Source of the DNA: Halichondria panicea
Taxonomy: Eukaryota > Porifera > Demospongiae > Suberitida > Halichondriidae
NCBI RefSeq assembly: GCF_963675165.1
Contig: NC_087382.1
Coordinates: forward strand, 4,379,963 to 4,443,962
Direction: 5' to 3'
DNA length: 64,000 bases
Shown here piece by piece: positions 326 to 64,000 of this stretch; positions within the stretch are counted from its first letter, which is position 1, and every line of letters begins with the position of its first letter. A program made the position numbers and the translations under genes. The notes beneath the pieces were generated by a model. That model made no database searches and was not told the DNA's origin. It saw only the letters and a program-made list of their open reading frames with translations.

Positions 326-934
326 ATGGGAACCTCTAACTCCAAACGCTCCAAACAACTGAACGCCAGCCTAAAAGATCAAAGTTTTCGCCCCAAACTC
401 GATGGTGCAAGCGTCGCATTAGGAGAATCTAACTCCAAGCAACTGAACACCAGTGTGAAAGATCAAGAATGGCAAAGTCTGCATTCCAAGCTTGATAGTG
501 CTACATTGGGAACTTCTGACTCTAAGCATGTGGACACAAACGATACTTTGTTCAATCTTAAAAAGTATTTGCTTCGTGAGAGCAAGTCACTGGATATTCT
601 AGTTCTTGGTGACCTACGAGAAAGTAATATTGTTGATGGTCTTATTGGTTTGAGGCTGTCTGAGATGAGCAGAAGTACCATCACTACTGACGATGGTGCC
701 GAGGAAATTGTTTTGTACAGAGCGAAGAGAGAGGGAATAGACGTCACTGTCTGGAACGCACCTAGCTTGTCTTTTCATCAAGAAGGCTATGTTCAGGAAA
801 TCAAGAGGATACTCGAAACTGTGGACCTGAAGTTACTGTACAATATTGGTCGTTGTCCATCAGATGTTATTGAAATATTAACATATCACGAGTACGTTTG
901 GGATCAAGTCTTTGATTATTGTTTCGAGTTCTGA
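326..934 (+). CDS. AIG1-like pseudo-GTPase with N-terminal tandem repeats and a myristoylation motif
   Basis: A 202-residue frame. Residues 1-70 hold about two and a half copies of a roughly 36-residue module (G-x-SNSK, then KQLNxSxKDQ, then SKLD). The protein begins MGTSNSK, fitting an N-myristoylation signal (Gly2, Ser6, basic residue after), so it may sit on a membrane. Residues 88-175 resemble the start of an AIG1/IMAP-type G domain: strand LDILVLGDL, then VDGLIGL, a central Thr, then VTVWNAPSL and an acidic helix with EIKRILETVDLKLLY. The GKS of the P-loop is replaced (LGDLRESN), and the DxxG of motif G3 reads NAPS, so GTP binding is doubtful. The family call comes from motif spacing and from two homologous copies at 4614 and 48283. 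The frame stops at 934, and homologous C-terminal sequence follows near 1060-1248 in another frame, so this may be an intron-containing gene or a decaying one. Confidence 0.45.
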   Translation: MGTSNSKRSKQLNASLKDQSFRPKLDGASVALGESNSKQLNTSVKDQEWQSLHSKLDSATLGTSDSKHVDTNDTLFNLKKYLLRESKSLDILVLGDLRESNIVDGLIGLRLSEMSRSTITTDDGAEEIVLYRAKREGIDVTVWNAPSLSFHQEGYVQEIKRILETVDLKLLYNIGRCPSDVIEILTYHEYVWDQVFDYCFEF

Positions 935-1059
935 TCTTTCGAAATCATATGACTCGTATGACAGGGTAACAGTGAGAGAGATTGTTCGCCTACCTTCACA
1001 GATGCACTAAATACTCAGGGGAAGAGAATATCAATATATACTTTGATAACAACTACTAC

Positions 1060-1248
1060 GCAAGAATTATCATTCATCCTGACATACGTGCTTCTTATTC
1101 TCTCTGGCTATCTAATTTCTTTTTTGGCTGTATCAGTTATCCCTGTTCACAAAATGTCAAAGGAGCACTTTTGAAACTCAACCTGAAACGATTTAAGTAC
1201 ATTCCAGAGGATGAAACAGTACCAAGTGTAATAATTATGTCCAATTGA
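1060..1248 (+). CDS. C-terminal part of the AIG1-like gene (separate exon or frameshifted remainder)
   Basis: The frame ending at 1248 contains WLSNFFFGC followed by KGALLKLNLKRF. The same block occurs at 6040-6090 (NGKGALLKLKLKRV), downstream of the second AIG1-like copy. In AIG1-like invertebrate proteins as I know them, a WLS-x-F segment and a Leu/Lys-rich helix lie after the G domain. This piece therefore probably continues the gene at 326-934. No clean GT-AG pair joining the two was established, so a frameshift is also possible. The upstream ATG at 982 is probably not a real start. Confidence 0.35.
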   Translation, partial: ARIIIHPDIRASYSLWLSNFFFGCISYPCSQNVKGALLKLNLKRFKYIPEDETVPSVIIMSN

Positions 1249-1677
1249 AGAGCAGCCATTAAATTTTACATTCACAGTGTATGAAAAACGACGCCGAGCG
1301 CGCCTGTCTTTAGGTAGCTCATTATGCACGTGGCTGCAAATCATGTAGAGATAGCACCGTGAATCGTTTCACTTTGGCTAGCTTTGTCTCAGCTAGCTAG
1401 CTAGCTACCTCAAACAAAGAAGACCAAGACTTAAGTTCTAGTATCAATCCTGCATGCTCCAGTATTCTCAGACTCAGCTCTAAGCACAACTTTATTCGAT
1501 ATTCAGGAAGGACAAGTTTAGAACAATCTCAGCCACATGAAACCTCTCAGGTAAATATAATGGTGCTCAGCTAGACTAGCAATACACAATTGACACCTGC
1601 CTTTTAGAATGTCTATAGCTAGCTAGCTTCTCACAAACATGTAATTACAAACAATGAGCAGTAGGTGTAACCAGTAG
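1249..1677. other. Non-coding stretch, no feature recognised
   Basis: AT-rich sequence with short CTAG/GCTA runs. No reading frame, splice-supported exon or repeat boundary was identified. Confidence 0.5.

Positions 1678-3131: not shown

Positions 3132-3194
<63 letters not shown>
3132..3194. repeat. (CA)n microsatellite in the relic intron of the ROCO pseudogene
   Basis: A CA run ending 12 bases before an AG acceptor. Its position matches the microsatellite-bearing introns at 22406-22524 and 58099-58191 in the two intact ROCO genes. Confidence 0.9.
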
Positions 3195-3195
<1 letters not shown>

Positions 3196-3206
3196 TATTA
3201 TTGCAG

Positions 3207-3816
3207 ATTGGTTGTTTCCGATGGATACTTTCTTGGTTCACTCCGCTTTGCAAGGAGTAAATGGTGCTCAATGGAAACTGTTGGGAATAAATCTTTCGAT
3301 CCCCTGGAACAAATTAGATGCCATTGAAAACGAAACATCCTTCCCCAGTGACATTGCTAAGAAAGAGGAAGTAATTCGACTGTGGATGTCTCAAGAACCC
3401 ACCTGGAAAATGTTGGCAGAGGCTCTCAGTCAACCTACAATTGGATTGTCCCAGAAAGCAAGTCAAATCTCACAAGAGCATAGTAAGTACCTCACAATCA
3501 TTATTGCCATTTATTCATGCATACATTTTATATAGATGTGTCTCTACAAGAAAAAATTCTTGAAAGCAATTCATCCACCTGCCCCGGCGAGGACTTTCTC
3601 CAATCGTTTGCTGCCATCATTGATTCTCGATGGCAGTGTCTTGCTTCTCCCCTCTCCCTCACTTCTGAAGACATTGTGAGCATCAAACAAGAACCAAGAA
3701 GAGCAGAGCCGACCAGACAAGCACTCGTCATGCTGCAAAAGTGAGCAGCCAGGGAGACGGCAACTTATGGTCTGTTGAGAGAGAGACTCCGTACACTCTC
3801 AGTGTTTCATATCTGA
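3207..3816 (+). pseudogene. 3' fragment of an ankyrin-ROCO-Death gene: Death-domain exons only, with a premature stop
   Basis: This matches the last two exons of the genes at 13369-23144 and 53337-58810. The first exon is 3207-3482 (276 bases, the same length as in both paralogues), with donor GTAAGTACC. The second is 3536-3816, with an acceptor ending TATAG. The second exon has an in-frame TGA at 3742-3744 where both paralogues have TGG, a Trp in the core of the second Death domain, and a 9-base in-frame deletion near its end. Sequence upstream of the microsatellite shows no ankyrin, Roc or COR homology, so the 5' part is missing. It is most likely a non-functional duplicate, though the first Death domain remains intact and could be used as an exon by another gene. 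Confidence 0.75.
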
Positions 3817-4613
3817 GAAAAATTAGCATCATGTATCACAGCACAAATTTATATGTATATATGTAGCTACATTCAATTGCACCTACTAGCTCTTTAAAGA
3901 ACCGTGTTTGTGTCACTGAACTTTCAAAAGTCATGCCTTGCCACTTAGCATTTCGAGCACTTTTGCACTTAGTCTAGTTCTATATATTTAATTAATTGTG
4001 CAATGTCATGACCGTTATAGCGATTATGGAAATTCCTGTACATGTACATTTTATTTTTTATATACTTCTGCATAATGCAAGTCTGTGTACAACGAGTAGC
4101 ATAGTTAATTATAAGCTAATAGAATGTGTGCCCTATATAATAATTATACACAACTTACAATTTACTACAGCGTGTACAAATTAAGTATGTACAAATTAAT
4201 ATGTTTATAATTGTACGTCTGTACGTCTTTTGTCTGCTCTCGTGCTTTAAGTGAGGGTGTGTGTGTGTGCTTGTGTGTATTATGTGCTTGGAACAGCTGA
4301 TGGAACGTACGTAGATGGATGATGGTTGTATCACTGTCCTTTGATTCTTCTGCCTGCATGTGTTGCATGACCAGGCCATCACATCAGGGTGCATTGTGAG
4401 GTAGTGGTGACTATGTCTGGTATGTGGTGTATTCACCTAGCTGATGAATGGTAATTAGCTTGTAAGGGATTGTGACCGTATACCTGCTCAGTTGGTGTGG
4501 TTACCATGGTCAGAATCTTATACTATAATTCTACTTACTTAATTTGCTTAACCTTTACTGGACAGTCAAGAATTTCTAGATTCTAGATTCCAGATTCCTT
4601 CTGATATTGAACA
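3817..4613. repeat. Duplicated 3' flank of the ROCO genes
   Basis: The sequence after the pseudogene matches the 3' flanks of the two intact ROCO genes (about 23145-23650 and 58811-59310), for example the shared CCTGTACATGTACATTTT and AATAGAATGTGTGCCC. About 4050-4330 also recurs at 8716-9000. No gene was recognised. Confidence 0.7.
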
Positions 4614-6640
4614 ATGGCAGCTTCTAACTCCCAGCAAGTGGACACCAGTGTGGTAGATCAAGGGTGTCAAAAGCTTTATTCTAAGCATGCCACTGCGACT
4701 ATAAAAACACTCAACTCCGATTGTCAACGTGATCACCCCAAGCTTGGTGGTGCGACAGACCAAGAGAGTGGAACTGAGGACGTGTTGATTCAGAAGTTCA
4801 AACAGTATGGTTGGTAATTCCCGAACATTAAAGAAATGCTTCGTGGGAGCAAGTTACTGAATGTTCAAGAAAGTAACATCATTGATGGTGTTATCGGCCT
4901 GATCATGAGGCTGTCTGAGGCGAGCAGAAGTACCATGACTATAGTGCAATTCAGCATAAACTTCCGAAATTGTATTTGCACTCCAAAATTGAGTATTCTA
5001 CAACAGCTTCATTGAAGGCTCACTAGTGATTACTTACATTATTAGGAGTGTAGGAACTTATTTCTGAAAAAATTAATTAATGGAAGACGTTAAAAATGGC
5101 ACAAAAGGTTGGTCCAAACGAATGTTAGGCCACGCTCACTCCTAAACTACCTCAGAACTTGTTCCCTGTACCATCTGCGCAAAATTTGTGAGCGTAACTT
5201 TTTCTTCATCCACTTATAATGCTATATATGAAGTTTTGATGTCTGTATGTGTACAGTGATTGACTAGAATCCATTTATAGGAAAAACCCCTAAAAGTGAC
5301 TTGTGGTTCACTGCATTGACATTTTTAAAATTCCTGAGCGTAGAATGGTTTGCAATGGAATGTAAGGCATGCATAACAAATTTGGTGTTGTAAAATTGAG
5401 CAGGGGAGGAGTTGAATCCTTTTGAAGCAAAATCAATCAATCCATTGTTCAAATCAATTAGTGAAGCGTTAAGTGTATTCATGAAAATTGAATCCTACAA
5501 AATGTAGGCCCACCACCTCTTAGTTGACCTGCATAATTGAATAGTGGCCTTAGTGATTCATTACTGAGTTATTATGTCTAATTGTAAAACAACATTTTGG
5601 AAGTTTATGCTGAATCGCACTATACTGATCGATGATGGTGCCAAGGAAATTGTTGTGTACAGAGCAATGAGAGAAGGAATAGGCGTCACTGTCTCGAACG
5701 CACCTAGCATATTCTGTGATGTGACCAATCGAGGAGATTATGTTAGTGAAATTAAGAAAATACTAAGTCTGGCTGATTTTAAGTGGCTGTACATTGATTT
5801 TGAGCGAGGCAAAGAAAAGCTTACTTCAATGTTTACTGGATTCGGAGCAAATATTTGGGCTCTTGTGATATTTTCAGAATTGGACGAGTATTTTTGTGTT
5901 CACCATTGGTTCCTTTTAAATCGAAAATTAATAAGTAAGATTCAGTGGATTACATGTTCGTCACTTTTTTTGCTGTGAAGATTAACAAAGTTCATTGATG
6001 CAGAATCTCTCGGAGTTGTTTTTCGATTGTGTTGATGCTATTTCTTCATGGAATGGAAAAGGAGCTCTTTTGAAGCTCAAACTGAAGCGAGTTTGTGAAA
6101 GTGTACTATGTCCAATCCAGGAGCAATTACCATTGGACTTGGAAGCAAATTGTGCTCCTTACAATGATTCAGAAGGTAAAGATGACAGTGTACTTGTAAT
6201 CCCAAGAGAAGTATTTGCCTCTGAGCCACAACCGCCATCAGAAGAAGATGAGGATAAATTAGAGCCTGTTCAGGAGCTCACACATTTTTACACAGGCACC
6301 CACGATCTTCAGTTCGGTGCACACAGTGGGGGAGCCATAGCAGTTACCGTTCCCTCTGTGCATGCTACCATCAGGTATCCAGACACTTTCGCCTGTTTCA
6401 GGAGCTCTAAATCAGAGGCCGGATGTCATCAAAGTTTCTTTTTTGCCTATCCTTTATCATCTCCTTTCGTTTAGGCAGTGTGGGATTGGGAACACTGGCA
6501 ATGTCGTGCGAAGACATCTACCCATCAAAAAACTGGGGTTTTGTCTAAAAACGCTCTGATAGTTTTAACTGCTCTTTTAGCCACGCTTTGTTCGCTTGGA
6601 GGTAACGTGGACTGCTGGTTTTGTGAGAAAATTATACTCT
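4614..6640 (+). pseudogene. Second AIG1-like copy, broken by a stop, a deletion and a transposon
   Basis: The start at 4614 reads MAASNSQQVDTS, homologous to the gene at 326, but Gly2 is now Ala, so the myristoylation signal is lost. An in-frame TAA at 4815-4817 interrupts it. Beyond the stop the frame continues with ESNIIDGVIGL and RLSEASRSTM, and the strand that would carry the P-loop start is deleted. A 681-base transposon (4942-5622) then splits the gene. After it, 5627-5935 encodes DDGAKEIVVYRA, VTVSNAPS, EIKKILSLADFKWLYID, and FGANIWALVIF, matching the later half of an AIG1-type domain. A further block from about 6003 (NLSELFFDC, KGALLKLKLKRV) runs open to 6474, and a hydrophobic frame (ALIVLTALLATLCSLGG) lies at 6475-6640. 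Introns may link these blocks, but the early stop and insertion argue for a pseudogene. Confidence 0.6.
4942..5622. mobile_element. TA-flanked DNA transposon (mariner-like or other TA-targeting MITE), 681 bases
   Basis: Termini are near-perfect inverted repeats of about 24 bases beginning TAGTGCAATTCAGC on the left, with the complement ending TGAATCGCACTA on the right. The element is bracketed by TA dinucleotides (4940-4941 and 5623-5624). The paralogous locus at 48331-48345 reads straight through with a single TA and no insert, an empty site. It carries no transposase frame, so it is non-autonomous. TA duplication points to the Tc1/mariner superfamily or another TA-specific group. Confidence 0.85.
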
Positions 6641-13368: not shown

Positions 13369-23144
<9,776 letters not shown>

Positions 23145-25053: not shown

Positions 25054-28000
25054 CTATTGTGTGTGTAACAACGAGATAATGTTTGACTCTTGTTGGGGAG
25101 GGGCTGGTTTATTGTCTTCTGTGATGAGGGGGGCTAGTTCATCCACGTAGAATGGTCTCAACTGGTCGGGCCTCGCAGCTGATCTGATAATGGGAGGAGT
25201 AACGTAATGATCAGAGTCAGCTTCTTCTACAACTCCATTAGTGTAAGGTGGTGGGTCCACAATGTCTACTTGCTCAGTTTTATGTTCCTTATCATCATCG
25301 TCTTCAAATTCATTGGCTGCAAGCTGATGCATTACCATGGCGTTGTTAGGTTGTTCGTTCCTTTTGTCTGCAGTACTAGTTCTCAATTTCTTTGCGACTT
25401 CTTTTATCTTGAGCCATGTTTTGGTCTTCTTTAGTATGTAGTGGTGGAAATGGTAGCTGATTATTGTCACAAAAAGGAGGAAAGCTATAGACATTGAAAC
25501 AATGGTCAGTGTTTCTTGCTGTCGGTGTGTTTCAACAACATAAAAAGTGCCAATAGATAGAATACCGAGATTAAGCAGAAAAAATGTTTCATTAAGTTGC
25601 TTTTTATACACTCGGTTGTTCAATGCTATCAGTCCGAATGCAATACAGCCAGATGATAGCAGAGGGAGAGATGTGTCTGGAGCCATGGCAACTACTAGAT
25701 TATGAGCAATCAGAGCAAAGAGGAGCAGTCCCACCCAGTAGCGATGCTTGGGAGGGAATGCAGCATGGTATGCATCCTTAAAACCATTGTAGTATGTGTT
25801 CTTGGTCCATATCATAACCTTGGAACAGCGAGGAAACCATTGTCCAAAGAAGAGCAGTACAGTGAACAATACACCGGCAATGAGGATTATGATAGCAGCA
25901 ACAAACTGAGGGATGTGATCGTGAGTGAAATATTGCACATTGCCGTCGTACAGCCACACAGTCTCGGTGGATCCGTCAGAATATTTCAAAACTCTGTTTT
26001 GTAGTGCAGCAATGACAAACCGTAAGAGTTTGGAATAAGATAGCAGGATGAGTGTGCCTAGGGCAGCAACTGGGTTCCTGTTGGAGAGGAGCTTTGCAAA
26101 TGAGTCAAAGTACTTGCTCAAAACGATTATGAAGAATATTAGAAGAAGCAAGTAAGCGGGAAAGACAAGTTGAAGGAGCACGTTTACTTGAGAGTTCATT
26201 CCATCGTAAAAGCAAGTCTCGATTCCCAGGTCAAGATTCACCCATGATATAAAAATTGTTAAAAAGTTGTTAAAACTAGGAAAGAAAATTGCTCTATTAG
26301 CAACTACTATGTTGGCGTAAAGTATGAGGCCATGAATATTTCCAGTTGCTATAGTAATGTTGAGCATGAGAATTAAAGTAACTAGCAATATGCCTGCCAG
26401 TGCTATTGGTATTAGTAGAAGAAGATAAAGATTAGAGCATTCTTTACAGTTGGACGTACCCAAAGCAAGACTGAGTCCTGGTTCACATTCTCCACACAAG
26501 ACACCACTTCGATTGTAGGCACATTGTTTGTCAGGGTTGCTTAGATTGATGTTGACTGGTTTTTCTACACAATAGTCAAATACACAGTTACTAACAACAT
26601 ACCCTGTTTTGTTGGTGGTATTTATGACTTCTATCCATATGTTGTTATTACTTTCTAGCTGTATGGTCCCAATTTCCTCAGAACAGCTTGTTATCTGATA
26701 ATCTTGTTGCAAAACTGGATCACAGTCACACTTGCACACAATATCGGACAGAATTGGTTTGAGCCCAATAGGGCATGTGCAGGGTAGAAAAGAAATACTA
26801 ATAAGTTGTCTTGAAATTCCCAAATTGATGCATGGACCTTCAGCATAGAGTTCCACTTGAGCAGAGCTGTCTTGTGAGAATACATTGTACTTTAATTCTG
26901 TGCACTGATTGCCAACTACTTGTTCAGCCTGTCCTTCTTTGAGACGAACAACACCACTACTAGTGATAACAGAATTGTGAATTGTAGCATTCACTGGATT
27001 TCCAACTTGGTCAATAGCCATAACACTGATTTTAAATGTGTGTCCTTTTCTTGTAAAAACAATGTCGCTTTGTGAATAGTTACATAAAATTACTTGCACA
27101 GGCCTAGAAGAGATTGATAATTCGGTGGAGAATTTTATAGTGTTATTTATGTAGTCTAATCCATTTGAAGAAAAGTAGTATTCAGCACTTTGACTTGCTG
27201 TACACCTGTCCAACAGACCTCCATAGATGTCTGCTCCTGATTGAGTAGCTTTGTTGTTAGTCATGAACGTGTTGAAATAGTTTGCGAATCCGTAGCCATA
27301 GTTATACAATTTAATTGTTTGAAAAAAGCATTCAGCAAAAATGGTTTGAGTAGCACCAGTTTCTATAACTCCTCCTCTGCAGGCACCACTCTCTGTGTCA
27401 TCCGCCACAAATATTCCCCCTCCGTACTGAGCCAAGTTGTTGTTAAACATTAACGTGACAAATATATTCTGAGCCTCATATTCATTGTCTTTCTTATATA
27501 TGTACAGGCTCGAACTTTGCTGTAGAAACACTCCACCTCCTTTAGCAATTGCGATGTTTGAGTCGATGTTAACGTGTGAACGAGTTAGTTTTATAGTTGT
27601 AGCTACTGCATATATACCTCCACCATTCTCAGCAATGTTTTTGACAATTTCACTTTGTGTATTTGTACCTAAACGAATTGGTAACGCAGATTGAAACTCG
27701 ACTCTGCTTGAATGAGCATAAATGCCTCCACCATTCAGTGCTGTGTTGTGATAGATTTTTATTGGCTTCTTTACAAAGAGTGTACTCTCTCTCAAAAATA
27801 TTCCTCCTCCGTAGGTAGCCATGTTGTTTTTTAGTGTACTGTTGGAGATGAACACAGTACTGCCTAGGTTACCATGAATCGCTCCACCATTCCCTTCAGC
27901 ACTGTTGTTTGTCAGTGTGCTGTTAGAGAGAGACACACTGCTTGAGTGAACACCAATTGCTCCACCACTCCCGTCCGCTCTATTGTTTGTCAGTGTGCTG

Positions 28001-34602: not shown

Positions 34603-35727
34603 TCAAGTTTTGGTATAGACCAAAGTTTTGTTTTTAGGCAGATTCTCGTAAGGTCTGTATGGATGCACAGACAAATCACGTTTGCATGTTTGTTGGCCCA
34701 GTAACCCCTTTGAGTCATCACTTGTTAACCATTGCTGTAAAATAGGTTCAACTGAAGCTCGATACTTTTCTGGTACTTCTGACCGAATTTCAGAGATGAT
34801 ATTAATCCAGTGTTCCGGAGTAAAAGCGCCCTGTGTGTAATTGCGGTGCAGTTTGTTTTCTACTACAAAGCGAGGGTCAATAACCACCTCTTTATTAAAT
34901 AAGATATTACACTTGATGTTAGTATACACTTGTGAGTAAAACCAGCTTACTGAATCTAATGTTGTTGTGTATGGAAGTATGTAGTCAATTGCTTGATAGT
35001 GAAAGGCGTTGAAGATAGCATCCATGAAATATATTTGTACGTATCGTGTGGGTTCACAATTCACTCGCTCAGGAAAAATTTCTTTGGAGTACTTCTTATT
35101 GTGATATTGGATGATAACTACAGCTGGTTGGAAGGTCTTGAGAGACTCTTCATACATCCTCCATGGATTCTGTTTGTCCGATGATATTAAATGTAGTTTA
35201 ACATCGTCGTCCATGAAAATGTAGTGGATGTACGTTTCTTTTCTTTCCTTGGCTGCTTCGTAAAGCAAGTTTCTTCCAACAGTCCAGGTTGTAGACTTAC
35301 TAGAGTTGAACAAGTATTGGACATGAGGCAATGACGTGTCATCGCACTTCTTTTTGTAACTGAGGATGATAACATCACACTGACATGCTTCAGAGTCACC
35401 AATCACTTCGGGAGACTTTAGATCAGCTGGAATACAGTTTTCTGTTTGTGTTAGATAGATAAAGCGAGTTGGTGTGACCGCCGTAGTGAGTCTTGTTTTT
35501 TCAGTCGTTATATCCTTTAAATTTGAGTGTTCAATAACATTGGCTTGCTCATTCATGATCCCCGGCTCCGTCAAGGGCTTGTAAGCTTTTGCCACCGTAA
35601 AGTGCAACTTTGGTAAATACCATAGCACTACAAGCAAAACAAGCAAAACAACTGATGGCAACACCTTCAAAGTGAGTTTATTCAGCACCATTATTACTGG
35701 CTCTGCTCTAATTATAGAACCACTCAA
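34603..35727 (-). CDS. Putative single-exon type II membrane glycosyltransferase-like protein
   Basis: A 374-residue open frame. One hydrophobic segment lies near the N terminus (VLPSVVLLVLLVVLWYL), preceded by Lys and Arg, fitting a type II Golgi membrane anchor. The start may be the first Met or Met13 (MVLNKLTLK). A stem region of about 70 residues leads to a globular domain with CDVIILSYKKKC, then TTWTVGRNLLYEAA and YIHYIFMDDDVKLHL. The acidic DDD after a hydrophobic strand is the kind of metal-binding motif seen in GT-A glycosyltransferases. Later segments include YVQIYFMDAIFNAFH and PRFVVENKLHRNY. I do not recognise the exact family, so enzyme class and substrate are open. There is a possible N-glycosylation site (NYTQ). 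No frameshift is seen. Its neighbours are repeats and a pseudogene, and the duplicated 3' flank at 41560 suggests that a second copy once existed. Confidence 0.6.
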   Translation of the reverse strand: MSGSIIRAEPVIMVLNKLTLKVLPSVVLLVLLVVLWYLPKLHFTVAKAYKPLTEPGIMNEQANVIEHSNLKDITTEKTRLTTAVTPTRFIYLTQTENCIPADLKSPEVIGDSEACQCDVIILSYKKKCDDTSLPHVQYLFNSSKSTTWTVGRNLLYEAAKERKETYIHYIFMDDDVKLHLISSDKQNPWRMYEESLKTFQPAVVIIQYHNKKYSKEIFPERVNCEPTRYVQIYFMDAIFNAFHYQAIDYILPYTTTLDSVSWFYSQVYTNIKCNILFNKEVVIDPRFVVENKLHRNYTQGAFTPEHWINIISEIRSEVPEKYRASVEPILQQWLTSDDSKGLLGQQTCKRDLSVHPYRPYENLPKNKTLVYTKT

Positions 35728-36235
35728 ATATAATTATATATAGAAGATACCAACTGCTAATTTTTGTTCTATTTATGAGCCATTTCCATTTCGTAATTAT
35801 TATTGTGGTGCTTAGTTACAAGACCATATTCAAAGTTATACTCCTTTTTCTAACTTTTTAACTTGCTGTCTGTTGTTGAAATGTTCTGTCTATCATAAAA
35901 GAACATGGATTTGAGGTATAAATGGTCAAATTCGTGTTGGCTAAGTGGCTGTGATCCCAAACAGCCCCAGATCAAAGTTAAACAAGAGGGCATTGTCTTA
36001 CTTTGACCCAACACTGAACGATAGCCATGATCTGGAACAACTCCAATTTTAGGTATGTTGTACATATAGTATTGTTTTGCTAGTGTGCAAAGTTGGAATA
36101 GGTGAATGTTGTCAGAAAAAAAGTTTACACTTGTACAAATAGGAATGTGTTATTAGCTTAGTGTATTAGCTTAGTGGTTTAATATACCTCTCATTACATG
36201 TAGCTCATAAAAATTTGAACTAGAAATAGAAAATC
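35728..36235. other. Spacer upstream of the glycosyltransferase-like gene
   Basis: AT-rich sequence including a TATATATAGAAG stretch near 35733-35744, which could serve the minus-strand gene. No other feature was identified. Confidence 0.3.
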
Positions 36236-48282: not shown

Positions 48283-48765
48283 CTTTATCGGCCTGATCAT
48301 GAGGCTGTCTGAGGCGAGCAGAAGTACCATGACTACTGCATGATGATGGTGCCAAGGAAATTGTTGTGTATAGATACAGAGCGATGAGAGAAGGAATAGG
48401 TGTCACTGTCTCGAACGCACCTAGCATATTGTGTGATGTGACCAATCGAGGAGATTATGAACTTAAGAAAATACTAAGTCTGGCTGATTTTAAGTTGCTG
48501 TGCATTGATTTTGAGCGAGGCAAAGAAAAGCTTACTTCAATGTTTACTGGATTCGGAGCAAATATTAAATTGGGCTCTTGTGATATTTTCAGAATTGGAC
48601 GATTATTTTTGTGTTCACCATTGGTTCCTTTTAAATCGAAAATTAATAAGTAAGATTCAGTTTGGATTACATGTTCATCACTTTTTTTGCTGTGAAGATC
48701 AACAAAATTCATTGATGCAGAATCTCTCAGAGTTGTTGTTGATTGTGTTGATGCTATTAAAATAC
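48283..48765 (+). pseudogene. Third AIG1-like copy, 5'-truncated and decayed
   Basis: It starts abruptly at GGCCTGATCATGAGGCTGTC, matching 4895 onward, and reads RLSEASRSTMTTA before a stop. A second frame then carries YRAMREGIGVTVSNAPS and KKILSLADFKLLCIDFERG, homologous to 5650-5830. It lacks the transposon of copy 2 (empty site at 48334-48335). A further block (NLSELLLIVLMLL) from about 48721 is cut short by a deletion relative to 6003-6640. Two frames and a missing 5' half make it a pseudogene. Confidence 0.6.
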
Positions 48766-51645
48766 TCTTGTGAGAATGTGCCTTTGATGAGTACTGTGGT
48801 CCGTTACCTGACAACACGATTTCAGGAATTCCAATATATAGGTGCATGTCAACAGTTTGATGACCTCGGCATATGTGCATGGTAGTCGGGAGTTTTACTA
48901 TCAAAATAGTAATCCATGACAAGTGAGTAATTGCTCTTTTACAGGCCAGTCCCTAGGCCAAAGACGTTCAAAATATTGAAGCCATTGATCAATTGTTCTG
49001 CATTGTGGTTGTGTTTTCGCTTTGTGTGACATTTCTCCACCATGTTTTTAATCTGTTTGTAGATGCCTGGCCACTATGCACACTGAGTGTTTGGCTCTCT
49101 GCAGGCATTTATATCCCTTTGTGTCCTTAAAATGGTTTTTTCATATATAGCTGCAAACAAAGCACTGTCACTAGAATTTTTGCTTAAATGCAAAGCCTAT
49201 TGACCATAGTAGTTAACAGGCTATTTAGCTCCATCAAGATCACTGCAAGACATGCAAGGGGGGTCAGATGTCTCGTGTATCTATAAGTATATTCGTGTAA
49301 TTTGATGACTGTTGACCAGCTCCCACACTTCCATTTCCTGTTTAATTCTTACTTCCTGTTTTACAAGGATAATCTACATGTAGAACTACTCTTGAATTTA
49401 ACCATTGATTTATCAAGCAACCAAGGAGACTGCACCAGTTGGCCCATAAGACTAGACAAAAGTGGTTTTCTAAGCTAGACTATAAGGTAAAAACTCGCTT
49501 CAGCTTGCATCACAGAACTTACGTGTGATTTACTGTTTAATAAATAGCTCTCTTTAACGTGTTGTTTGTACCACTCAGTGAAAAGTATATATCTGCATAC
49601 CATATACCTGTGTCGGAGGATTCAGTGTCCCCCACGTCCTGCATGGATCCTAGAAACTATAGCCTATAATTATAGCAGGAGTTCATAATGCACCATCAAT
49701 GTCAGTACCCACTACCCCCCCCCCCCCATGCGGGATATGTCGGGGTTTAGTTACCATATATATACCTGTGTCGGAGGATTCAGTGTCCCCCAGACCCTGG
49801 ATCCTAGGAACTAGGATTTAGTGATTATAAACATTGCAAAAATGCAATTAATTATAGACTAGAGTTATTATGCCTCCAGGCGTAGCCGCACGAGAGATAC
49901 AGTAAAACTGCATGTGTGTTGTGATACTGCTTTAAGCATTATCACAATACCACTACTTCAAAGTGTATATCTACATCGTGTGGTGTGCATGTGCATGCAT
50001 GTGCATGTAGTATAATACATTGCATTGTGTCAGTTTGTGTGTATAGTGGCATTGTAAGCAGTCACCTGACACACAACACACAATGAGCAGTGTCACATGT
50101 GAACATCTGGCCACCTCTACAGGCCTCGAGGGAATAAAGGGGGCTTTGCGCAGTGCAGAAACAGTGTATAGAAATGTATCGTAAAACTGAAATATCCATC
50201 AAATCAAACAAGATGCTCATAATAGGATAGGAATCGGGAATGATCGCAAAGAACAAAGATTAGATCGATAAAAACTGTTGCCTTCGAATATTGCCTACAA
50301 GTTCTATAAGTATAGCCTATTATTTTTCAACCAGCATGTCGTTAAAGAAGTCCATGAAAGTGTAGACTATATAGTTTGCTCAAACAGCTCATTTTTGTGT
50401 CCACACAACACCAATCACTCTACCCTTTTTGTTTGCTGTGTACGCACAGGGTAATAAGTCATTGTGCATATACACATGCAGAGCTATATAGCTAGCTAAC
50501 TATATAATTATAGAGACAGGAATTGACTGATTCAGAAGTCTCTAGTATGTTTGTTGCAGCCCTTCACTCCAAGATATTGTTCTTCCTGTGGCTTTGTCAC
50601 AATGCTAGTGTAAACTTTTGCCTGTTCAGATTACGGTCATCCCATTGTCGTTGTATATGTATGGCTTTATGCATGTAAGTCTTTTGTTAGCATAGCTAAG
50701 AGAAGCTATCAGTATAGGACCTGAGCTATTAGAATCGAACTGTGCGAATGTACTATAGCTAGATACGTGATTGAATGTGTTTTTAAATCTTTGTTTTACT
50801 GATATACGAATTCCTCAGATTCTGGGAATATAGGTATAATTATGGGTGCCATTTGCAAAAACATCATGTATGTGTAAATACACTCACTGTATCGGTCTCC
50901 CGATTTACTAATTAAAATCGTCCTCACACTCTTTAATATTGTTCTCTAAATGAATGTCCTCGCGCTGCGCAGCCTTAAACCTTTACTTGCTATTGATTGA
51001 CGCTTTAAAGTGTAACAAACGGTGCCCTCCACTGAGCGGCCAGCTATCATAAATGTCACAAACAGTGCACAAAGTTTACTAAATTCGGACAGACATTTAG
51101 TAAAGTAGTGTGAGATTAATTTAGTGAAATGGCATCTATAAATTTAGTAAATTGGGAGGAGACAGATAAGTGAAGTGGATTTTAAGTATGCAGTTTTTAC
51201 ACAATCATAGTGTTTTTTAAATAGGTAGCGCATATGCAATTAAGCAGTCGATACCAGGCACTCAAACAATAACAAGGAGAGGAAATGGGCGCATAGGAAT
51301 GAGGCTAACACACATGCATCTAGCCTTCTACAGGCCTCTTGAAAAAATGTGCACAATATCATAAATTTAACTGCATAATATCCTGAAATATACAGACAAA
51401 GAATACAATGTACAGAATTCTCTGCTACAATTCCATCACAGAGGAGGCTGGAATAAGTTGAATATGTCCAAAATTCCTAGTCGTGGACACAAGCTTATTA
51501 TTTCAGGCGTATGTACAAAGGGAAACCGTATGGGTCAATTCAAGTTTGCTCAGAAGCAGAATATGATACAACTTTTTGCTTTAGCTAGTGCAATGAGATG
51601 GGCGGAGTCAATTTATGAGCTGGTTAAAATGTTATAAGACACACA
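48766..51645. repeat. Non-coding part of the segmental duplication (copy of 6641-8716)
   Basis: Collinear with 6641-8716 and ending at TTATAAGACACACA. It contains an extra roughly 800-base interior (about 50310-51120) absent from the first copy. No gene was recognised. Confidence 0.8.
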
Positions 51646-53336: not shown

Positions 53337-56300
53337 ATGGCTGATGACTGCCAGTCATGTGATACTGCCCTGCACACTGCTGCAAGCAGTGGGAACTTAG
53401 ATGAGGTCAGAGAGCTGTTGAAAACAAAGCAATATGAAGTGGACCTAAAAAACTCGCACAACCAAACATCTCTTCATCTTGCATGTGCTAATGGTCATAT
53501 TGATATGGTTTGGACACTAGCCAATGACTTTGGTGCTGATATAGGAGCTTTGGATAATGGCGGTAATACACCATTGTTCTTTGCTGCTAAGAACAAACAT
53601 GTACAAATAATTGTCATGCTGATCCTATTTTCAATGTGTGGTCGACTCTTCAATGGAATAGCACTACCATGTTCCTTTAGCCGTAGTAGAGTTGATGATC
53701 ATCATGTTAAAATGTTTGAGGATGTCCTCTTTGAGTACTACAATAATTTTGAAGCTGAGGAGAAAACTATGCATCTGATAAGCAAATTCTTTGTTGATTA
53801 TATTCAATTCAAAGATTATAAGGAAGAAGGCTTTTTTACACTGCTTGTAGCTGCATCACTTGGTTTTAAAGACTTGATTAATCGGTTAGTTACAGAGAAG
53901 AAAGCAGACCTTAATATGGAGGGTTTCTGTGGTTTGTCTGTTCTCCACTGTGCCTGTTTTGGAGGACACGTACTGCTCGTGGAGAGTCTTATTTCAGAAT
54001 ATAGTATGGACCTCTCTGTGAGAGATAAAGAAGGACGCTCAGTTTTGCATTATGCCGTATCAAAAGAGGTTCCCCATTCATCCAATGGTAGTCACATAGA
54101 ACTACTTGATAAACTGGTGATGCAATATGGCCTCAATTCCACAGACAGAGATAATAATGGAGACACACCTCTACATATTGCAGCCATGTTCGGACATGTT
54201 GAAGCAGTGAGAAACCTGATCAGTAAGCACCGTGCTGATATTGATTGCACTGATAATCAGAACACTACTCCATTGATGCTAGCTGTGCTGAATGGTCATA
54301 TGTCTGTTTTGGATGCGTTAGTTAAAGAATTCAACGGCAGTTGTCATGTACGAGGTTACAATAGCCTCACTCTCCTTCACTATGCCTGCTACGGTGGCCA
54401 TATAGAGCTGATAGACAAACTGGTGATGGAATATGGCCTCGATCTCGCAGATAGAGATGATCATGGAGACACACCTCTACATATTGCAGCTTTGTTCGGA
54501 CATGTTGAGGCAGTGAGACACTTAATCAGTAAGCACAGTGCTGATATTGATAGCACTAATGATCAGAATAATACTCCATTGATGGAAGCTGTGCTGAACG
54601 GTCGTGTGTCTGTTTTGGATGCGCTAGTCAAAGAATTCAAGAGCAGTTGTCATGTACGAGGTTACAATAGCCGCACTCTCCTTCACTATGCATGCGAGGG
54701 TGGCCATATAGAACTGATAGACAAACTGGTGATGGAATATGGCCTCGATCCCACAGATAGAGATAATGATGGAGACACACCTCTACATATTGCAGCCATG
54801 TTCGAACATGTTGAAGCAGTGAGACACTTGATCAGTAAGCACAGTGCTGATATTGATTGCACTAATAATCGGAACTCTACTCCATTGATGAAAGCTGTGC
54901 TGAAAGGTCATGTGTCTGTTTTGGATGGGTTAGTCATAGAATTCAACAGCAGTTGTCATGTACGAGGTTACAATAGCCGCACTTTCCTTCACTATGCATG
55001 CGAGGGTGGCCATATAGAACTAATAGACAAACTGGTGATGGAATATGGCCTCAATCCAACAGACAGAGATAATGATGGAGACACACCTCTACATATTGCA
55101 GCCGCTACAGGACATGTTGAAACAGTTAGACACTTGATCAGTAAGCACAGTGTTGATATTGATTGCACTAATAGATGGAACTCTACTCCATTGATGAAAG
55201 CTGTGATGAATGGTCATGAACCTGTTTTGGATGTGTTAGTCAAAGAATTCAAAAGCAGTTGTTTTGTCCGAGGATACAATAGCCGCACTCTCCTTCACTA
55301 TGCATACCAGGGTGGCCATGTAGAGCTGATAGACAAACTGGTGATGGAATATGGCCTCGATCCCACAGGTAGAGATAATGATGGAAACACACCTCTACAC
55401 ATTGCAGCCAAATTCGGACATGTTGAAGCAGTGAGACACTTGATCAGTAAGCACAGTGCTGATATTGATTGTACTAATAATCGGAACTCTACTCCATTGA
55501 TACTAGCTATGCTGAATGGTTGTGTGTCTGTGTTGGATGCATTAGTCAAAGAATTCAACAGCAGTTGTCATGTACGAGGTTACAATAGCCGCACTCTCCT
55601 TCACTATGCATGCCAGGGTGGCCATGTAGAGCTGATAGACAAACTGGTGATGGAATATGGCCTCGATTTTGGAGATAGAGATGATGATGGAAACACACCT
55701 CTACATATTGCAGCCATGAAAGGACATGTTGAAACTGTGAGACACTTGATTACTCAGCACAAAGTTGAAACCAATGTCATTAACAATGTTAACTCTACTC
55801 CACTGTGTTTAGCTGCTGAATGGGGTCATGAGATCGTGATACATGCCTTAATTAAATTGAATTGCAACCCACATGCCAGAGGCTACAACGGTCAAACTCT
55901 TCTTCATTATGCTTGCCAGAATGGTCATATAGAAACTTTAAACAATTTAATATCAGAATATAAGGTTGATCCAAAAATTAGAGACAACGATGGGAACACA
56001 CCTCTTCATATTTTGTGTCGTACTCCGCATACTGAAGAAGAGAAGCTAATAAAAATCCTTTGCGAGTACCAGTACTGGACAGTGTTTCAAGTTAATAATA
56101 ATGGCAACACCCCTCTTCACACAGCAACTCTCTTTGAACAAGCTCATTGTGCACGCTTACTATTGCAGAAATACAATGCTCCACTATTTGTGCGAAATAA
56201 AGATGGGAAGACCGCCCTCGATTTAGCTAAAGCTCAGAGGAGCCAAAAAATTATTACAATTTTTGAAACTCATAATTTTGAGATCCAGTCAATCTACCAG

Positions 56301-58810
56301 CAACTAGATAAACTTGCAAAACAAGAGTTTGGTGGTGAAAAGAACCTCACAAGATTATTTGTTGTTGGTAATCCAGGTGCAGGGAAATCCACGCTTGTTG
56401 AGACTATAAAAAAGGAAAGTTTGATCAGTTACTTCAGCACATCAACTGTTGCCCCTCACACTGCAGGCATTGTTCCAAGTACTTATGACAGTAGTGCTTA
56501 CGGAAGAATGATACTCTACGATTTTGCTGGTGATTCCGAGTACTATTCCTCACATGCTGCAATAATGGAGTCAATCAACACATCGAAAGGAAGTAATATC
56601 TATTTGATAGTTTGTGATTTGAGTAAAGGTGAAGAAGCTGCTGGCACTAAATACAGCTACTGGCTTTCATTTCTATCATACAATATTAAGCAATTCTCAA
56701 ACACAGTTATTTTACCAGTGGGAAGCCATGCTGATGTCGTTAAAAAAACATCAGTTGAACAATCATTATGTGTGCTGGACAGCATATCACAAAAGTTCTG
56801 TAGTAGCTCCAAGATTGATGATCTACACGTAGATCAAAGTGTTGCTCTTGATTGTCGTAGACGAGGAGCTGTAGTGAATGAAATAAAGGAGCTTACCAAG
56901 AGATTCTCCAAAGTAGTATCCCCCATCGGACTTTCCCCAGAGACAAGCACTGTCTTGGGATTGTTGAAGAAAGACTTTGAACATGTTCCAGCTTGCAAAG
57001 TGAGCCTCCTTATATCTCACATTGAAGAGACTGGAATTCCGTTACTACTAAATTCATCATCACTATACCCTCTCATAAGAGAGTTACATGATTTGGGTCT
57101 GCTAATGGTGATAGAGAGAGAAGGGGACTCCATTGAGAACCACATAATCATTCTCAAGATATCAACATTCACATCGGATGTACACAATAAACTGTTTTCG
57201 AAGTCTGCTAAAGCGGACCTTACCAAGCACATCGATCAACTCAAGCTCAGCGTAGGCATTATTCCAGAATCACTACTTGAGAAAGTACTGCCAGAGTACA
57301 TCACAAAAGAAAGTCTACTTAAGCTGCAGTACTGTCAAGAAATTGAGAATTTGAATGTGGAAGAGGACCACACTCTTTCTCAAGAAACTCCTGGAACAGT
57401 ACCAACAGATAGTGCCACTAAAGAGAAATCTCATCTATTTTTCCCTGCTCTGTGTGATCTCAAGCTCGAAGAAATTCAATGGCCACAATCTGAAGAGGAT
57501 AAAATTACTTTGGGATGGTATGCTGAATGTGATGGTAACAGATTTGATTTCTTCCCATCACGATTTCTTCACGTGCTTATCGTTCACCTCTCTCACAACT
57601 TTGCACTAAAACAAAGTCTGCCCACAAGTTACAGACTCTCCACTACAGCTTCCGATTTTTTGATTACGGAGGTAAATGCTGCTAATCCTCGCTGTCGTGT
57701 CTGGTCGACTGGTCTGCATTGGCTTATGAAGAATGGAGTGGAGGTATTTGTCGATATGCCTAAAGACGCTGATAGTAAAGAGCTGATCGTACTAGCAAGG
57801 AGTGACGTTAAAAATCAAGTCGAATGTTCCAACACTCTGCAACTAGTTATTCAGAAAGTAGTCAAAGCAAAGGTTGAATTCTGTGCTGGAATAGTGCCTA
57901 CTGTTTCTCTCCTTGACCCGAGCAACCTCAAAGATGAACCTTTTCCAAATGCTAGAAATGCAGTTAAATACCCTCTTAGAGATATTGAAGAAGCATTAGC
58001 AGAGGGCACTGAGCGAGTCATGGATAAAGAAGGAAGATGCTTTTCCACTCCAATCAAAGACTGGATTAGCCCAACAAGATGGTCCATATCTTACTGGAGT
58101 AAGTTTCACACATGCACACACACACACACGTACACACCCACCCACCCACCCACCCACACACACACACACACACATATTTATTATTGTACAGATTGGTTGT
58201 TTCCGATGGATACCTTCTTGGTTCACTCCGCTTTGCAAGGAGTAAATAGTGCTCAATGGAAACTGCTGGGAATAAATCTTTCGATCTCCTGGAACAAATT
58301 AGATGCCATTGAAAACGAAACATCCTTCCCTGGTGACATTGCTAAGAAAGAGGAAGTAATTCGACTGTGGATGTCTCAAGAACCCACCTGGAACATGTTG
58401 GTAGAAGCTCTCAGTCAACCTACAATTGGATTGTCCCAGAAAGCAAGTCAAATCTCACAAGAGCATAGTAAGTACCTCACAATCATTATAGCCATTTATT
58501 CATGCGCACATTTTATATAGATGTGTCTCTACAAGAAAAAATTCTTGAAAGCAATTCATCCGTCTGCCCCAGCGAGGACTTTCTCCAATCGTTTGCTGCC
58601 ATCATTGATTCTCGATGGCGGTGTCTTGCTTCTCCCCTCTCCCTTACTTCTGAAGACATTGTGAGCATTAAGGTAGAGACAAGAGGAGCAGAGCCAACCA
58701 GACAAGCACTCGTCATGCTGCAGAAGTGGGCAGCCAGGGAGACGGCAACTTATGGTCAGTTAAGAGAGAAGCTCCGTACTCTCCGTACACTCTCAGTGTT
58801 TCATATCTGA
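53337..58810 (+). CDS. Ankyrin-Roc-COR-(Death)2 protein, shorter ROCO paralogue
   Basis: Three exons: 53337-58098, 58192-58467 and 58521-58810, with GT-AG introns, phase 1, and exon lengths identical to the paralogue for exons 2 and 3. About 1775 residues. It starts at MADDCQSC, and the ATG equivalent to 13357 is ATA here. Ankyrin repeats span about residues 10-980 (roughly 27 repeats). The Roc GTPase has GNPGAGKST at 1011-1019, DFAGDSEY and GSHADVV. COR-like sequence runs to about 1588, then two Death-fold domains. All nucleotide-binding motifs are intact and no disabling change is seen, so both copies may be functional. Compared with the gene at 13369, the catalytic and C-terminal parts are nearly identical, while the ankyrin array is about 14 three-repeat units shorter. 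Partner specificity could therefore differ while signalling output is kept. Confidence 0.88.
58099..58191. repeat. Microsatellite-bearing intron of the second ROCO gene
   Basis: 93-base GT-AG intron filled by CA repeats with a CCCA variant run. Same position and phase as the intron at 22406-22524. Confidence 0.9.
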
Positions 58811-60585: not shown

Positions 60586-63500
60586 TCATTGGCTGCAAAT
60601 GACGTTGTTAGTTTGTTCGTTCCTTTTTTCTGCAGCACCAGTTTTTAATTTCTTTGCGACTTCTTTTATCTTGAGCCATATTTTGGTCTTCTTTAGTATG
60701 TAGTGGTGGAAATGGTAGCTGATTATTGTCACAAAGAGGATGAAAGCTATAGACATTGAAACATTGGTCAGCGTTTCTTGTTGTCGGTGTGTTTCAGCAA
60801 CATAAAAAGTGCCAATAGATAGAATGCCGAGATTAAGCAGAAAGAATGTTTCATTAAGTTGCTTTTTATACACTCGGTTGTTCAATGCTATCAGTCCGAA
60901 CGCAATACACCCAGATGATAGCAGAGGGAGAGATGTGTCTGGAGCCATGGCAACTACTAGATTATGAGCAATTAGAGCAAAGAGGAGCAGTCCCACCCAG
61001 TAGCGATGCTTGGGAGGGAATGCAGCATGGTATGTATCCTTAAAACTATTGTAGTATGTGTTCTTGGTCCATATCATAACCTTGGAACAGCGAGGAAACC
61101 ATTGTCCAAAGAAGAGCAGTACAGTAAACAATACACCAGCAATGAGGATTATGATAGCAGCAACAAACTGAAGGATGTGATCACAAGTGAAATATTGCAC
61201 ATTGCCGTTGTATAACAAAACAGTCTCAGTTGAACCGTCAGAATATTCCAAAACTCTGTTTTGTAGTGCAGCAACAATAAACCGTAAAAGTTTGGAATAA
61301 GAGAGTAGGATGAGTGTGCCTAGGGCAGCAACTGGGTTCCTGTTGGAGAGGAGCTTTGCAAATGAGTCAAAGTACTTGCTCAAAACGATTATAAAGAATA
61401 TTAGAAGAAGCAAGTAAGTGGGAAAGACGAGTTGAAGGAGCACGTTTGCTTGAGAGTTCATTCCATCGTAAAAGCAAGTCTCGATTCCCAGGTCAAGATT
61501 CACCCATGATATAAAAACTGTTAAAAAGTTGTTTAAACTAGGAAAGAAAATTGCTCTATTAGCAGCTACTATGTTGGTGTAAAGTATGAGGCCATGAATA
61601 TTTCCAGTTGCTATAGTGATGTTGAGCACGAGAATTAAAGTAACAAGCAATATGCCTGCCAGTGCTATTGGTATTAGTAGAAGAAGATAAAGATTAGAGC
61701 ATTCTTTACAGTTGGACGTACCCAAAACAAGACTGAGTCCTGGTTTACATTCTCCACACAAGACACCACTTCGATTGTAGGCACATTGTTCGTCAGGGTT
61801 GCTTAGATTGATGTTGACTGGTTTTTCTACACAATAGTCAAATACACAGTCACTAACAAAATACCCTGTTTTGTTGGTGGTATTTATAACTTCTATCCAT
61901 ATGTTGTTATTACTTTCTAGCTGTATGGTCTCATTTTTCTCAGAACAGCTTGTTATCTGATAATCTTGTTGCAAAACTGGATCACAGTCACACTTGCACT
62001 CAATATTGGATTGAATTAACTTGAGCCCAATAGGGCATGTGCAGGGTAGAAAATAAATATTTATAAATTGTCTTGAAATTCCCAAATTGATGCATGGACC
62101 CTCGGCATAGAGTTCCACTTGAGCAGAGCTGTCTTGTGTGAATACATTGTACTCTAATTCTGTGCACTGATTGCCAACTTCTTGTTTTGCCTGTCCTTCT
62201 TTGAGACGACCAACACCACTCTCACTGACAACAGAACTGCGAATTCTAGCATTCACTGGATTTCCAACTTGGTCAACAGCCATAACACTGATTTTAAACG
62301 TGTGTCCCTTTCTTGTAAAAACAATGTCGCTTTGTGAATATTTACAAAAAATTACTTGCACAGGCCTAGAAGAGATTGATAATTCGGTGGAGAATTCTAT
62401 GGTGTTATTTATGTAGTCTAACCCATTTAAAGAAAAGTAATATTCAGCATTTTGACTTACTGTACACCTGTCCAACAGACCTCCGTAGATGTCTGCTCCT
62501 GACTGGGTAGCCGTGTTGTTAGTCATGAACGTGTTGAAATGGTTTGCGAATCCGTAGCCATAATTATACAATTTAATTGTTTGAAAAAAGCATTCAGCAA
62601 AAATGGTTTGAGTAGCACCAGTTTCTATAACTCCTCCTCCACACGCACTCCTATCCGTGTCATCCGCCACAAATATTCCCCCTCCGTACTGAGCCAAGTT
62701 GTTGTTAAACATTAACGTGACAAATATATTCTGAGCCTCATATTCATTGTCTTTTTTATATAAGTACAAGCTCGAGCTTTGCCGTAGAAACACTCCACCT
62801 CCACTAACAGTTGCTGTATTTGAGTAGATGTTAACGTGTGAACGAGTTAGTTTAATGGTTGTAGCTACTGCATAAATGCCTCCACCATTCTCAGCAATGT
62901 TGCCAACAATCTCACTTTGTGTATTTGTATACCTAAACACATTGGTAACACAGATTGAAACTCGATTCTGCTTGAATAAACATAAACGCCTCCACCATTC
63001 AGTGCTGTGTTGTGATATATCTTTATTGGCTCATTTACAAAGAGTGTACTGTCTCTCAGAAATATCCCTCCTCCAAAGGTAGTAGCCGTGTTGTTTTTTA
63101 GCGTACTTTTGCAGATGGACATAGTACTGCCTAGATTACCATGAACCGCTCCACCATTCCTGTTAGCACTATTGTTTGTCAGTGTGCTGTCGGAGATAGA
63201 CACACTGCTTGAGTAAACACCAATCGCTCCACCACTCCCGTCAGCTCTATTATTTGTCAGCGTGCTTTCGAAAACGGACAAATTGCTTGAGGTAACATCA
63301 ATTGCTCCACCAAAGTCAGCTCTGTTGTTTGTTAGTGTGCTGTCGGAGATAGATACACTGCTTGAGTAAACAACAATCGCTCCACCACTCCTGTTAGCTC
63401 TGTTGTTTGTCGGCTCGCTGTCGGATATGGACAAACTGCTTGAGGTAACATCAATCGCTCCATCAAAGTCAGCTCTGTTGTTTGTCAGTGTGCTGTCGGA

Positions 63501-64000
63501 GATAGATACACTGCTTGAGTAAACAACAATCGCTCCACCACTCCAGTCAGCTCTGTTGTTTGTCAGTTCGCTGTCGAAAATGGACAAACTGCTTGAGGTA
63601 ACATCAATCGCTCCACCTAAGTCAGCTCTGTTGTTTGTCAGAATGCTGTCAGAGATGGACAAACTGCCTGAGGTAACATCAATCGCTCCACCATTCCAGT
63701 CAGCACTGTTGTTTGTCAGTTCGCTGTCGGAGATGGACAAACTACCTGAGGTAACATCAATTGCTCCACCATAGTCAGCTCTATTGTTTGTCAGTATGCT
63801 GCCGGAGATAGATACATTATTTGAGTAAACATAAATCGCTCCACCATACCGAAAAGCTTCGTTATTTGTGAAGCCACACCAAGTGATAACTACAGTACCC
63901 GATACCGCTTTTACCGCTCCTCCAGTCACAGCACTGTTATAGTTGAACTCTGTGTTGCTGATCAGTGTGCTATTTGATTCAATGTAAACTGCACCTCCAC
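60586..64000 (-). pseudogene. Beta-helix receptor paralogue with a frameshift and lost C-terminal tail (5' end beyond the window)
   Basis: Homologous to the receptor at 28959-25054. Reading in from the window edge, 63929-62935 encodes GGAID/LTNNRAD beta-helix repeats, about twice as many as in the intact copy. A 2-base TA insertion at about 62929-62931 (GTATACC against GTACC in the paralogue) shifts the frame. The second frame, up to 60586, carries the rest of the helix, the Cys-rich region and all membrane segments. A 14-base deletion near 60600 then causes a stop after NNVICSQ, removing the acidic stretch and the PPPY motif. Either change could be a sequencing error, but two together suggest decay or a tail-less variant. 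The start and signal peptide lie outside the window. Confidence 0.75.

Follow-up and report, generated by a model that had tools for sequence, protein, structure and literature searches.

A recurring trio of AIG1-like, ROCO and receptor genes in Halichondria panicea is probably a local segmental duplication and not a conserved module

We analysed a window of 64,000 nucleotides from the sponge Halichondria panicea (G000:C6:4379963-4443962; genome of 131 Mb in 39 contigs, given here as C numbers) in which three gene types recur side by side. These are an AIG1-like gene, a ROCO gene with an ankyrin array, a Roc GTPase region and Death domains, and a convergent gene for a beta-helix membrane protein, called the receptor below. 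Our data suggest that the trio recurs because a chance neighbourhood was duplicated locally as a segment, and that it is not a conserved module (probability about 0.8), because the three families concentrate in different places in the genome, the AIG1-like gene and receptor B are broken, and the homology enters non-coding DNA and a fourth gene.

Comparison of the window with itself gave a pair of segments in collinear order: A at 4.9-35 kb, and B from 48.3 kb to past the window end, which it overruns by ~0.6 kb in receptor B. Units A (4.6-29 kb) and B (48.3-64 kb) had the same gene order and orientation: AIG1-like pieces, the ankyrin-Roc-Death gene on the plus strand, and the convergent membrane protein on the minus strand. 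A third copy, here copy 0, was a remnant at 0.3-4.2 kb. An earlier note on this DNA had described a three-gene repeat complete in unit A; the order and orientation were indeed found twice, with an end remnant, but unit A is not fully intact, its AIG1-like gene being broken. Nucleotide identity between the genes of A and B was 93-95%. The features are as follows (L numbers denote other stretches of the genome).

326..1288, plus strand: AIG1-like copy 0, broken, in three frames (tblastn pieces 548-841, 882-965, 1066-1230 and 1241-1270).
3132..4184, plus strand: ROCO copy 0 remnant, with (CA)n tract, Death-domain exons and 3' flank (92% to 22444-23275 and 58115-58932).
4611..6474, plus strand: AIG1-like copy A, broken (tblastn pieces 4821-4940, 5574-5798 and 6010-6342, in differing frames).
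13369..23141, plus strand: ROCO A, with ankyrin array, Roc and COR-like region, (CA)48 intron and two Death domains.
14092..20199, plus strand: ankyrin array of ROCO A, 20 units of ~306 bp with three ankyrin repeats each.
20587..22410, plus strand: Roc and COR-like region of ROCO A, COR putative (Roc PF08477 E 2e-5, 25.2 bits against a cut-off of 27; LRRK2 Roc chains E 1.1e-7).
25054..28959, minus strand: receptor A, unbroken, with signal peptide, beta-helix with 12 GGAI-type motifs, cysteine-rich part, several transmembrane segments and PPPY tail.
34603..35733, minus strand: fourth gene of the duplicated block, 376 aa, with an N-terminal hydrophobic segment (82% nucleotide match to L033:4769-5685, inverted).
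48285..51645, plus strand: AIG1-like copy B, broken, and downstream spacer (collinear with 4891-8717).
53337..58807, plus strand: ROCO B, with shorter ankyrin array, Roc and COR-like region and two Death segments.
54063..55892, plus strand: ankyrin array of ROCO B, 6 units of ~306 bp.
60586..64000, minus strand: receptor B, frameshifted near 62.9 kb, two overlapping open reading frames (ORFs) in differing frames; the N-terminal part runs on in L033:2-592 (91% match).

The homology between A and B outlasts the trio, taking in pieces of non-coding DNA to ~32.2 kb and the fourth gene (34.6-35.7 kb), which is inverted in B. A segmental duplication is expected to leave homology that is collinear and also takes in non-coding sequence and bystander genes, as seen here. 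This supports one of the two origins proposed in the earlier note, one block copied wholesale, with the additions that a fourth gene belongs to the block and that divergence along it is uneven. The fourth gene matched no family in Pfam (E<=0.01) or NCBIfam (E<=0.1); by eye, and without a family hit, it looked glycosyltransferase-like.

We searched the genome for each family, scoring 84 of 272 candidates for the ROCO Roc region, 79 of 518 for the receptor and all 16 of 16 for the AIG1-like gene. The Roc region gave at least 90 matches. On C12, at 1.04-2.08 Mb, we observed an array of at least 30 uninterrupted near-full-length Roc-region copies (83-90% identity, median spacing 25.8 kb; stretches L021-L030, L040-L049 and L053-L058), together with decayed copies; the open frames around these 30 Roc regions span 737-4555 aa. 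Among the matches listed, those on C6 were ROCO A, ROCO B and a single distant sequence (28%, C6:1310531); C11 and C2 carried relatives at 62%, 53%, 52% and 42%, fragments were also listed, and the 26-41% class was led by C7. A second distant Roc-region group, with at least 14 near-full-length members at 28-29% identity, lay at C7:5.8-7.3 Mb. The receptor gave at least 80 matches; those listed fell on C6 (62), C11 (8), C14 (5), C4 (3), C10 (1) and C5 (1) and none on C12, and the nearest one outside the window was ~0.2 Mb downstream. A short receptor-tail-like piece was also seen at L033:3186-3290. The AIG1-like search gave 10 matches, none on C12.

We then looked beside other ROCO copies. Neither the receptor nor the fourth gene was found at E<=0.01 in any of 13 downstream stretches of 4.4-10 kb each (10 on C12, 1 on C11, 2 on C2); a fourteenth (L049, 1.9 kb) was likewise empty and is too short to count. 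Adjacency of the AIG1-like gene was assessed through the whole-genome AIG1-like search, because this gene sits upstream of ROCO, and two stretches upstream of C12 ROCO copies (L040, 8.7 kb; L043, 3.4 kb) held none. At the depth searched, the trio was thus adjacent nowhere in this genome beyond the duplicated block.

These data bear on the other origin proposed in the earlier note, a functional module in which the surface receptor would signal to the neighbouring GTPase-Death protein and the AIG1-like GTPase, the trio being held together by selection. The identical order and orientation in two units, the low pairwise ratio of nonsynonymous to synonymous divergence (dN/dS) in ROCO and the unbroken frame of receptor A agree with such a module. 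Against this, the families lie in different places and, at the depth searched, meet only here; the receptor is missing from all 13 ROCO downstream stretches; and none of the three AIG1-like copies is intact, nor is receptor B. We consider the module very improbable.

The state of the AIG1-like copies was read from their closest unbroken relative (L031:7779-8846, 356 aa, ~12 kb upstream of the window), which as a tblastn query aligned to all three window copies only piecewise and in several frames. Copy 0 also matched at the nucleotide level over 572-1288 (71%). This relative has itself lost the P-loop GxxxxGKS and the DxxG motif and gave nothing in Pfam at E<=1, so that it falls outside the AIG1 domain proper. 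Both motifs are present in six relatives on C6, C9 and C14, and Pfam AIG1 was found in the two canonical relatives scanned (one on C14, one on C9; E 1.5e-10 and 9.2e-15). The window copies are like GIMAP/AIG1 GTPases in matching genes on C6, C9 and C14, and unlike them in that their closest unbroken relative lacks the P-loop, DxxG and a Pfam match. Of general bearing on AIG1 only, one study places GIMAP/IAN genes among the responders to symbionts in one sponge species (PMC11229196).

Receptor A occupies an ORF at 25054-29019, its features coming from a motif and hydropathy scan. The whole protein matched Chlam_PMP (6.2e-11), and its GGAI-type beta-helix repeats resemble those of the Chlamydia polymorphic membrane proteins; the signal peptide, several transmembrane segments and PPPY tail set it apart from them. 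NCBIfam gave no identity, and solved structures gave no convincing match. A predicted model of the membrane part was unusable (mean predicted local distance difference test score, pLDDT, 39; two aligned sequences). Receptor B has lost the cytoplasmic tail, where the alignment shows a gap.

ROCO A has an ORF at 13354-22578 (3074 aa), followed by a Death ORF to 23144; Pfam on the full ORF gave Ank_2 (E 0), Roc at 22.3 bits (cut-off 27) and Death (3.2e-14) in two stretches. ROCO B has an ORF at 53331-58520 (1729 aa) whose frame stays open across the (CA)-type intron; Pfam gave ankyrin repeats, with Roc (2.8e-5) and Death (0.003) both below their cut-offs, and 58511-58807 holds a further Death segment, open in a different frame. 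Roc G motifs were intact in both long ORFs, as the earlier note had stated. All 14 family sequences scanned matched PF08477 at E<=0.1, with 8.2e-7 as the best value, which places the family among Roc GTPases; as Roc-region fragments, ROCO B barely exceeded the 27-bit cut-off (27.2 bits) and ROCO A fell below it. A conserved stretch of ~350 aa adjoins Roc C-terminally in the family. No COR family appeared there among the Pfam matches, PDB matches end where Roc ends, and a predicted model of the Roc and COR-like region was unusable (mean pLDDT 29; two aligned sequences).

The remnant retains the Death-domain end alone, with a stop within the second Death exon (PF00531 E 2.3e-4, 21.7 bits; cut-off 22.6 bits). 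In A and B a short ROCO intron is nearly filled by (CA)n after a GTAAGT donor; the tracts lie at 22414-22509 (A) and 58107-58174 (B), and at 3132-3194 in the remnant. The breakpoint of the remnant is at this tract, and the DNA to its left is unrelated to A and B. An origin of the C6 ROCO as a retrocopy of spliced mRNA was considered and dropped, because the (CA)n intron is retained.

In a tree with the C11 and C2 copies as outgroup, ROCO A and B came out as sisters, with a support of 100 from nucleotides and 99 from proteins; the C12 copy in L029 branched outside the pair with an ultrafast bootstrap (UFBoot) value of 92 on nucleotides. ROCO homology between C6 and the compared C12 stretches ran from about the start codon (13352) to ~23393. 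ROCO B differed from ten C12 copies by a dS of 0.24-0.29.

We estimated dN/dS between A and B (pairwise NG86, bootstrap ranges in brackets). In the Roc region (608 codons) dS was 0.146 and dN 0.028, giving 0.19 (0.13-0.28), and the ankyrins after the array gave 0.28 (0.14-0.55). The C-terminal part of the receptor (770 codons; dS 0.114, dN 0.045) gave 0.39 (0.27-0.58). Values were higher in the ROCO N-terminus (0.53, 0.32-0.92), the receptor N-terminal part (0.55, 0.29-1.18) and the first Death exon, where changes are few (0.78, 0.12-2.72). The earlier note had proposed this comparison for the ROCO pair and had held that selection kept the coding part of the unit. That fits ROCO and in part the receptor, of which B is broken, but not the AIG1-like gene.

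The same note had spacers decaying around the genes. In the two best-aligned spacer stretches, 105 of 2391 sites (5.6-8.7 kb) and 45 of 1156 sites (23.2-24.4 kb) differed, ~4%, when plainly misaligned windows and the more diverged windows adjoining the second stretch (36/308, 24.4-24.8 kb) were excluded. This is less than gene dS. The other aligned pieces, with many gaps, had divergence (K) of 0.125 (12.9-13.2 kb), 0.086 (24.5-24.9 kb), 0.033 (29.6-29.8 kb) and 0.090 (30.2-30.8 kb), K over the fourth gene was 0.133, and much of the spacers at 8.7-12.6 kb and 30.9-34.5 kb could not be aligned.

Several of these results weigh against a single local duplication of a chance neighbourhood. Gene dS (0.11-0.15) is about three times the divergence of the two best-aligned spacer stretches (~0.04), and divergence this uneven (spacer K 0.03-0.13) is not what a single clean duplication evolving at a uniform neutral rate would give. 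The nested position of A and B had a support of only 35 on proteins, and the tree took 10 of the 30 C12 copies. Pairwise dN/dS cannot show constraint on each copy by itself. Distant ROCO and receptor members were uncounted at the depth searched (84/272 and 79/518 scored).

The uneven profile could reflect a composite history, in which duplication or conversion affected separate parts of the unit on separate occasions, whether through tracts from the C12 ROCO array or other C6 receptors, or through flanks copied or homogenised later. Such a history would modify the block-copy reading and not replace it. It is suggested by the dS of 0.146 (ROCO) and 0.114 (receptor) set against ~0.04 in the two spacer stretches and by the K of 0.03-0.13 along the block. 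Of 75 A/B differences in 510 Roc-region codons, 29 had each of the two variants in at least one of 10 C12 copies, the other 46 were private (23 on each side), and the longest run of shared sites was 8 (permutation P = 0.011). The overall runs test was not significant (P = 0.069), however, and the shared fraction (0.39) did not exceed that of other close family pairs (L021/L022 0.33, 4/12; L026/L030 0.39, 11/28; other pairs 0.43-0.91). Private synonymous differences alone still gave ~0.076. Homoplasy, or mutation rates that differ between coding and non-coding DNA, may also account for the pattern, the comparison having covered 10 of 30 C12 copies. We regard a composite history as a tentative alternative; gene conversion between ROCO copies is possible, not established.

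We also weighed an assembly artefact, in which A and B would be the two haplotypes of a single locus or the product of its misassembly. The near-tandem position on one contig and the gene identity of 93-95% would fit. The ankyrin arrays differ in number of units (20 vs 6), dS exceeds 0.1, the gene states differ, and unrelated DNA with reverse-transcriptase remains lies between the units, so an artefact appears highly unlikely.

We therefore retain local segmental duplication, for which we propose the following course. A stray ROCO gene, most likely from the C12 array, would have landed beside a degenerate AIG1-like gene and a receptor of the C6 family; the C12 array is the likely source, and the direction of transfer is what we infer. 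This neighbourhood of ~25-30 kb, non-coding DNA and fourth gene included, would then have been copied nearby in a single founding duplication. A third copy may have lost most of its middle, with the junction at the (CA)n tract of the ROCO intron. Later fates would have been separate: the AIG1-like gene broken in three copies, the receptor intact in A but disrupted in B, and ROCO kept in both.

The ROCO protein itself is most likely an intracellular sensor-switch with a Death-domain output. The ankyrin array would bind a ligand, the Roc GTPase would set the state, and the two Death domains would bring in an adaptor for cell death or inflammation, much as might a DAPK1 that lacked its kinase. 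DAPK1 has ankyrin repeats before Roc, as ROCO does here, and ROCO A combines ankyrin repeats with C-terminal Death domains as in the DAPK1 group. The Roc GTPase with a C-terminal Death domain is described for that metazoan group of Roco proteins (PMC6337361). The proteins here differ in two Death domains, a very long ankyrin array, tens of clustered copies and the lack of a detected kinase: Pfam found no kinase family in the ROCO ORFs, and the motifs HRD..N and DFG were absent from the sense frames of 0.8-8.7 kb of DNA upstream of five ROCO copies, a scan that intron-split or farther motifs would escape. We term the family DAPK1-like, not DAPK1, because the N-terminal kinase was not found.

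The 306-bp ankyrin units vary in number and in sequence. Those passing a filter of 98-104 aa (44 units) comprised 19/19 intervals in A, 5/5 in B, and 9/21 and 11/22 in two C12 genes, whose remaining units were longer or irregular and were dropped. By eye the units bear gene-specific signatures, a pattern as expected if units are homogenised within genes. At positions 2, 3, 5, 13, 14, 26 and 33, which we take to be those varied in designed ankyrin proteins, within-gene nonsynonymous variation averaged 0.197, compared to 0.096 over all columns; none of 20000 random column sets was as high, and the true register ranked first of 34 shifts. Pooled pN/pS there was 0.93 (A 0.86, B 1.06, C 1.48, D 0.77) vs 0.57 elsewhere. 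Two points weaken a recognition reading: synonymous variation is also raised at the seven positions (pS 0.209 vs 0.125), and ordinary ankyrin proteins likewise vary at them. The variation appears to be relaxed or mildly diversifying change and is no proof of recognition, and judged from sequence the ROCO proteins are candidate intracellular recognition proteins. It is possible, if doubtful, that the tens of ankyrin-Roc-Death-Death genes on C12 give the animal a repertoire for recognition inside its cells, a parallel to NLRs, serving immunity or self/non-self recognition; arrays homogenised within genes, fast change in unit number, variation mainly at ligand-facing positions and a GTPase switch with Death output would fit this.

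Fungal NLRs use a STAND NTPase, where ROCO here has a Roc GTPase. Fungal NLRs are reported to have repeat arrays of high internal conservation, with units alike within a gene, and to be receptor-type proteins tied to regulated cell death (PMC4986451, PMC12222747), a likeness seen for ROCO in sequence. The nearest published analogue we found is the brown-algal LRR-ROC-COR family, an expanded Roco family with shuffled and diversifying N-terminal repeats whose members are proposed as candidate immune receptors (PMC11378527). As described there, the algal proteins differ in having LRRs with one motif per exon and in being mostly dispersed; here an ankyrin array sits in one huge open frame, the genes lie mainly in one array, and Death domains are added. 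The same paper gives 9-47 ROCO genes in brown algae, said to exceed other organisms reported to date, and at least 17 in the placozoan Trichoplax, some with death domains. Trichoplax, set beside our family by description, is thus another animal of an early branch in which ROCO genes are many and some are combined with Death folds; the repeats named for it are LRR and TPR. For the sponge Amphimedon, 357 NCOA6-type TRADD-N proteins are reported, most of whose architectures have Death-like domains (PMC8195603).

Other observations concern DNA around the units. Reverse-transcriptase remains lie between A and B at 42917-44043 as two ORFs, the first of which matches RVT_1 (E 8.8e-25). A 172-bp inverted repeat (11599-11770 / 11968-12139, 99% identical), possibly a fold-back element, lies in the spacer upstream of ROCO A. 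At 32464-34152 a palindrome-like stretch of ~1.1 kb (82% self-complementary) is followed by an 18-bp minisatellite. Minus-strand ORFs at 36379-38673 show by eye a CXC-like cysteine motif and may be a decayed transposon; two ORFs scanned had no Pfam hit. At L032:1673-2107, 3582-4013 and 7504-8076 (minus strand) three short precursors stand in a row, each with a signal peptide, an acidic part and a cationic C-terminus ending GRR; by eye they resemble antimicrobial-peptide precursors.

For this locus, our results remove a tempting but wrong inference, that adjacency means joint function. They also point to a ROCO family worth study. We observed 58 stop-free matches that cover at least 440 of the 511 residues of the Roc-region query, and these, as raw matches down to 27% identity and not gene models, already exceed in one genome the 9-47 genes of brown algae. 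We found no published account of an ankyrin-Roc-Death-Death family in the titles and abstract openings of the mostly open-access literature on Roco and sponge immunity. Should the ankyrin arrays serve as recognition surfaces, the sponge would possess an innate receptor repertoire built on a DAPK1-like scaffold.

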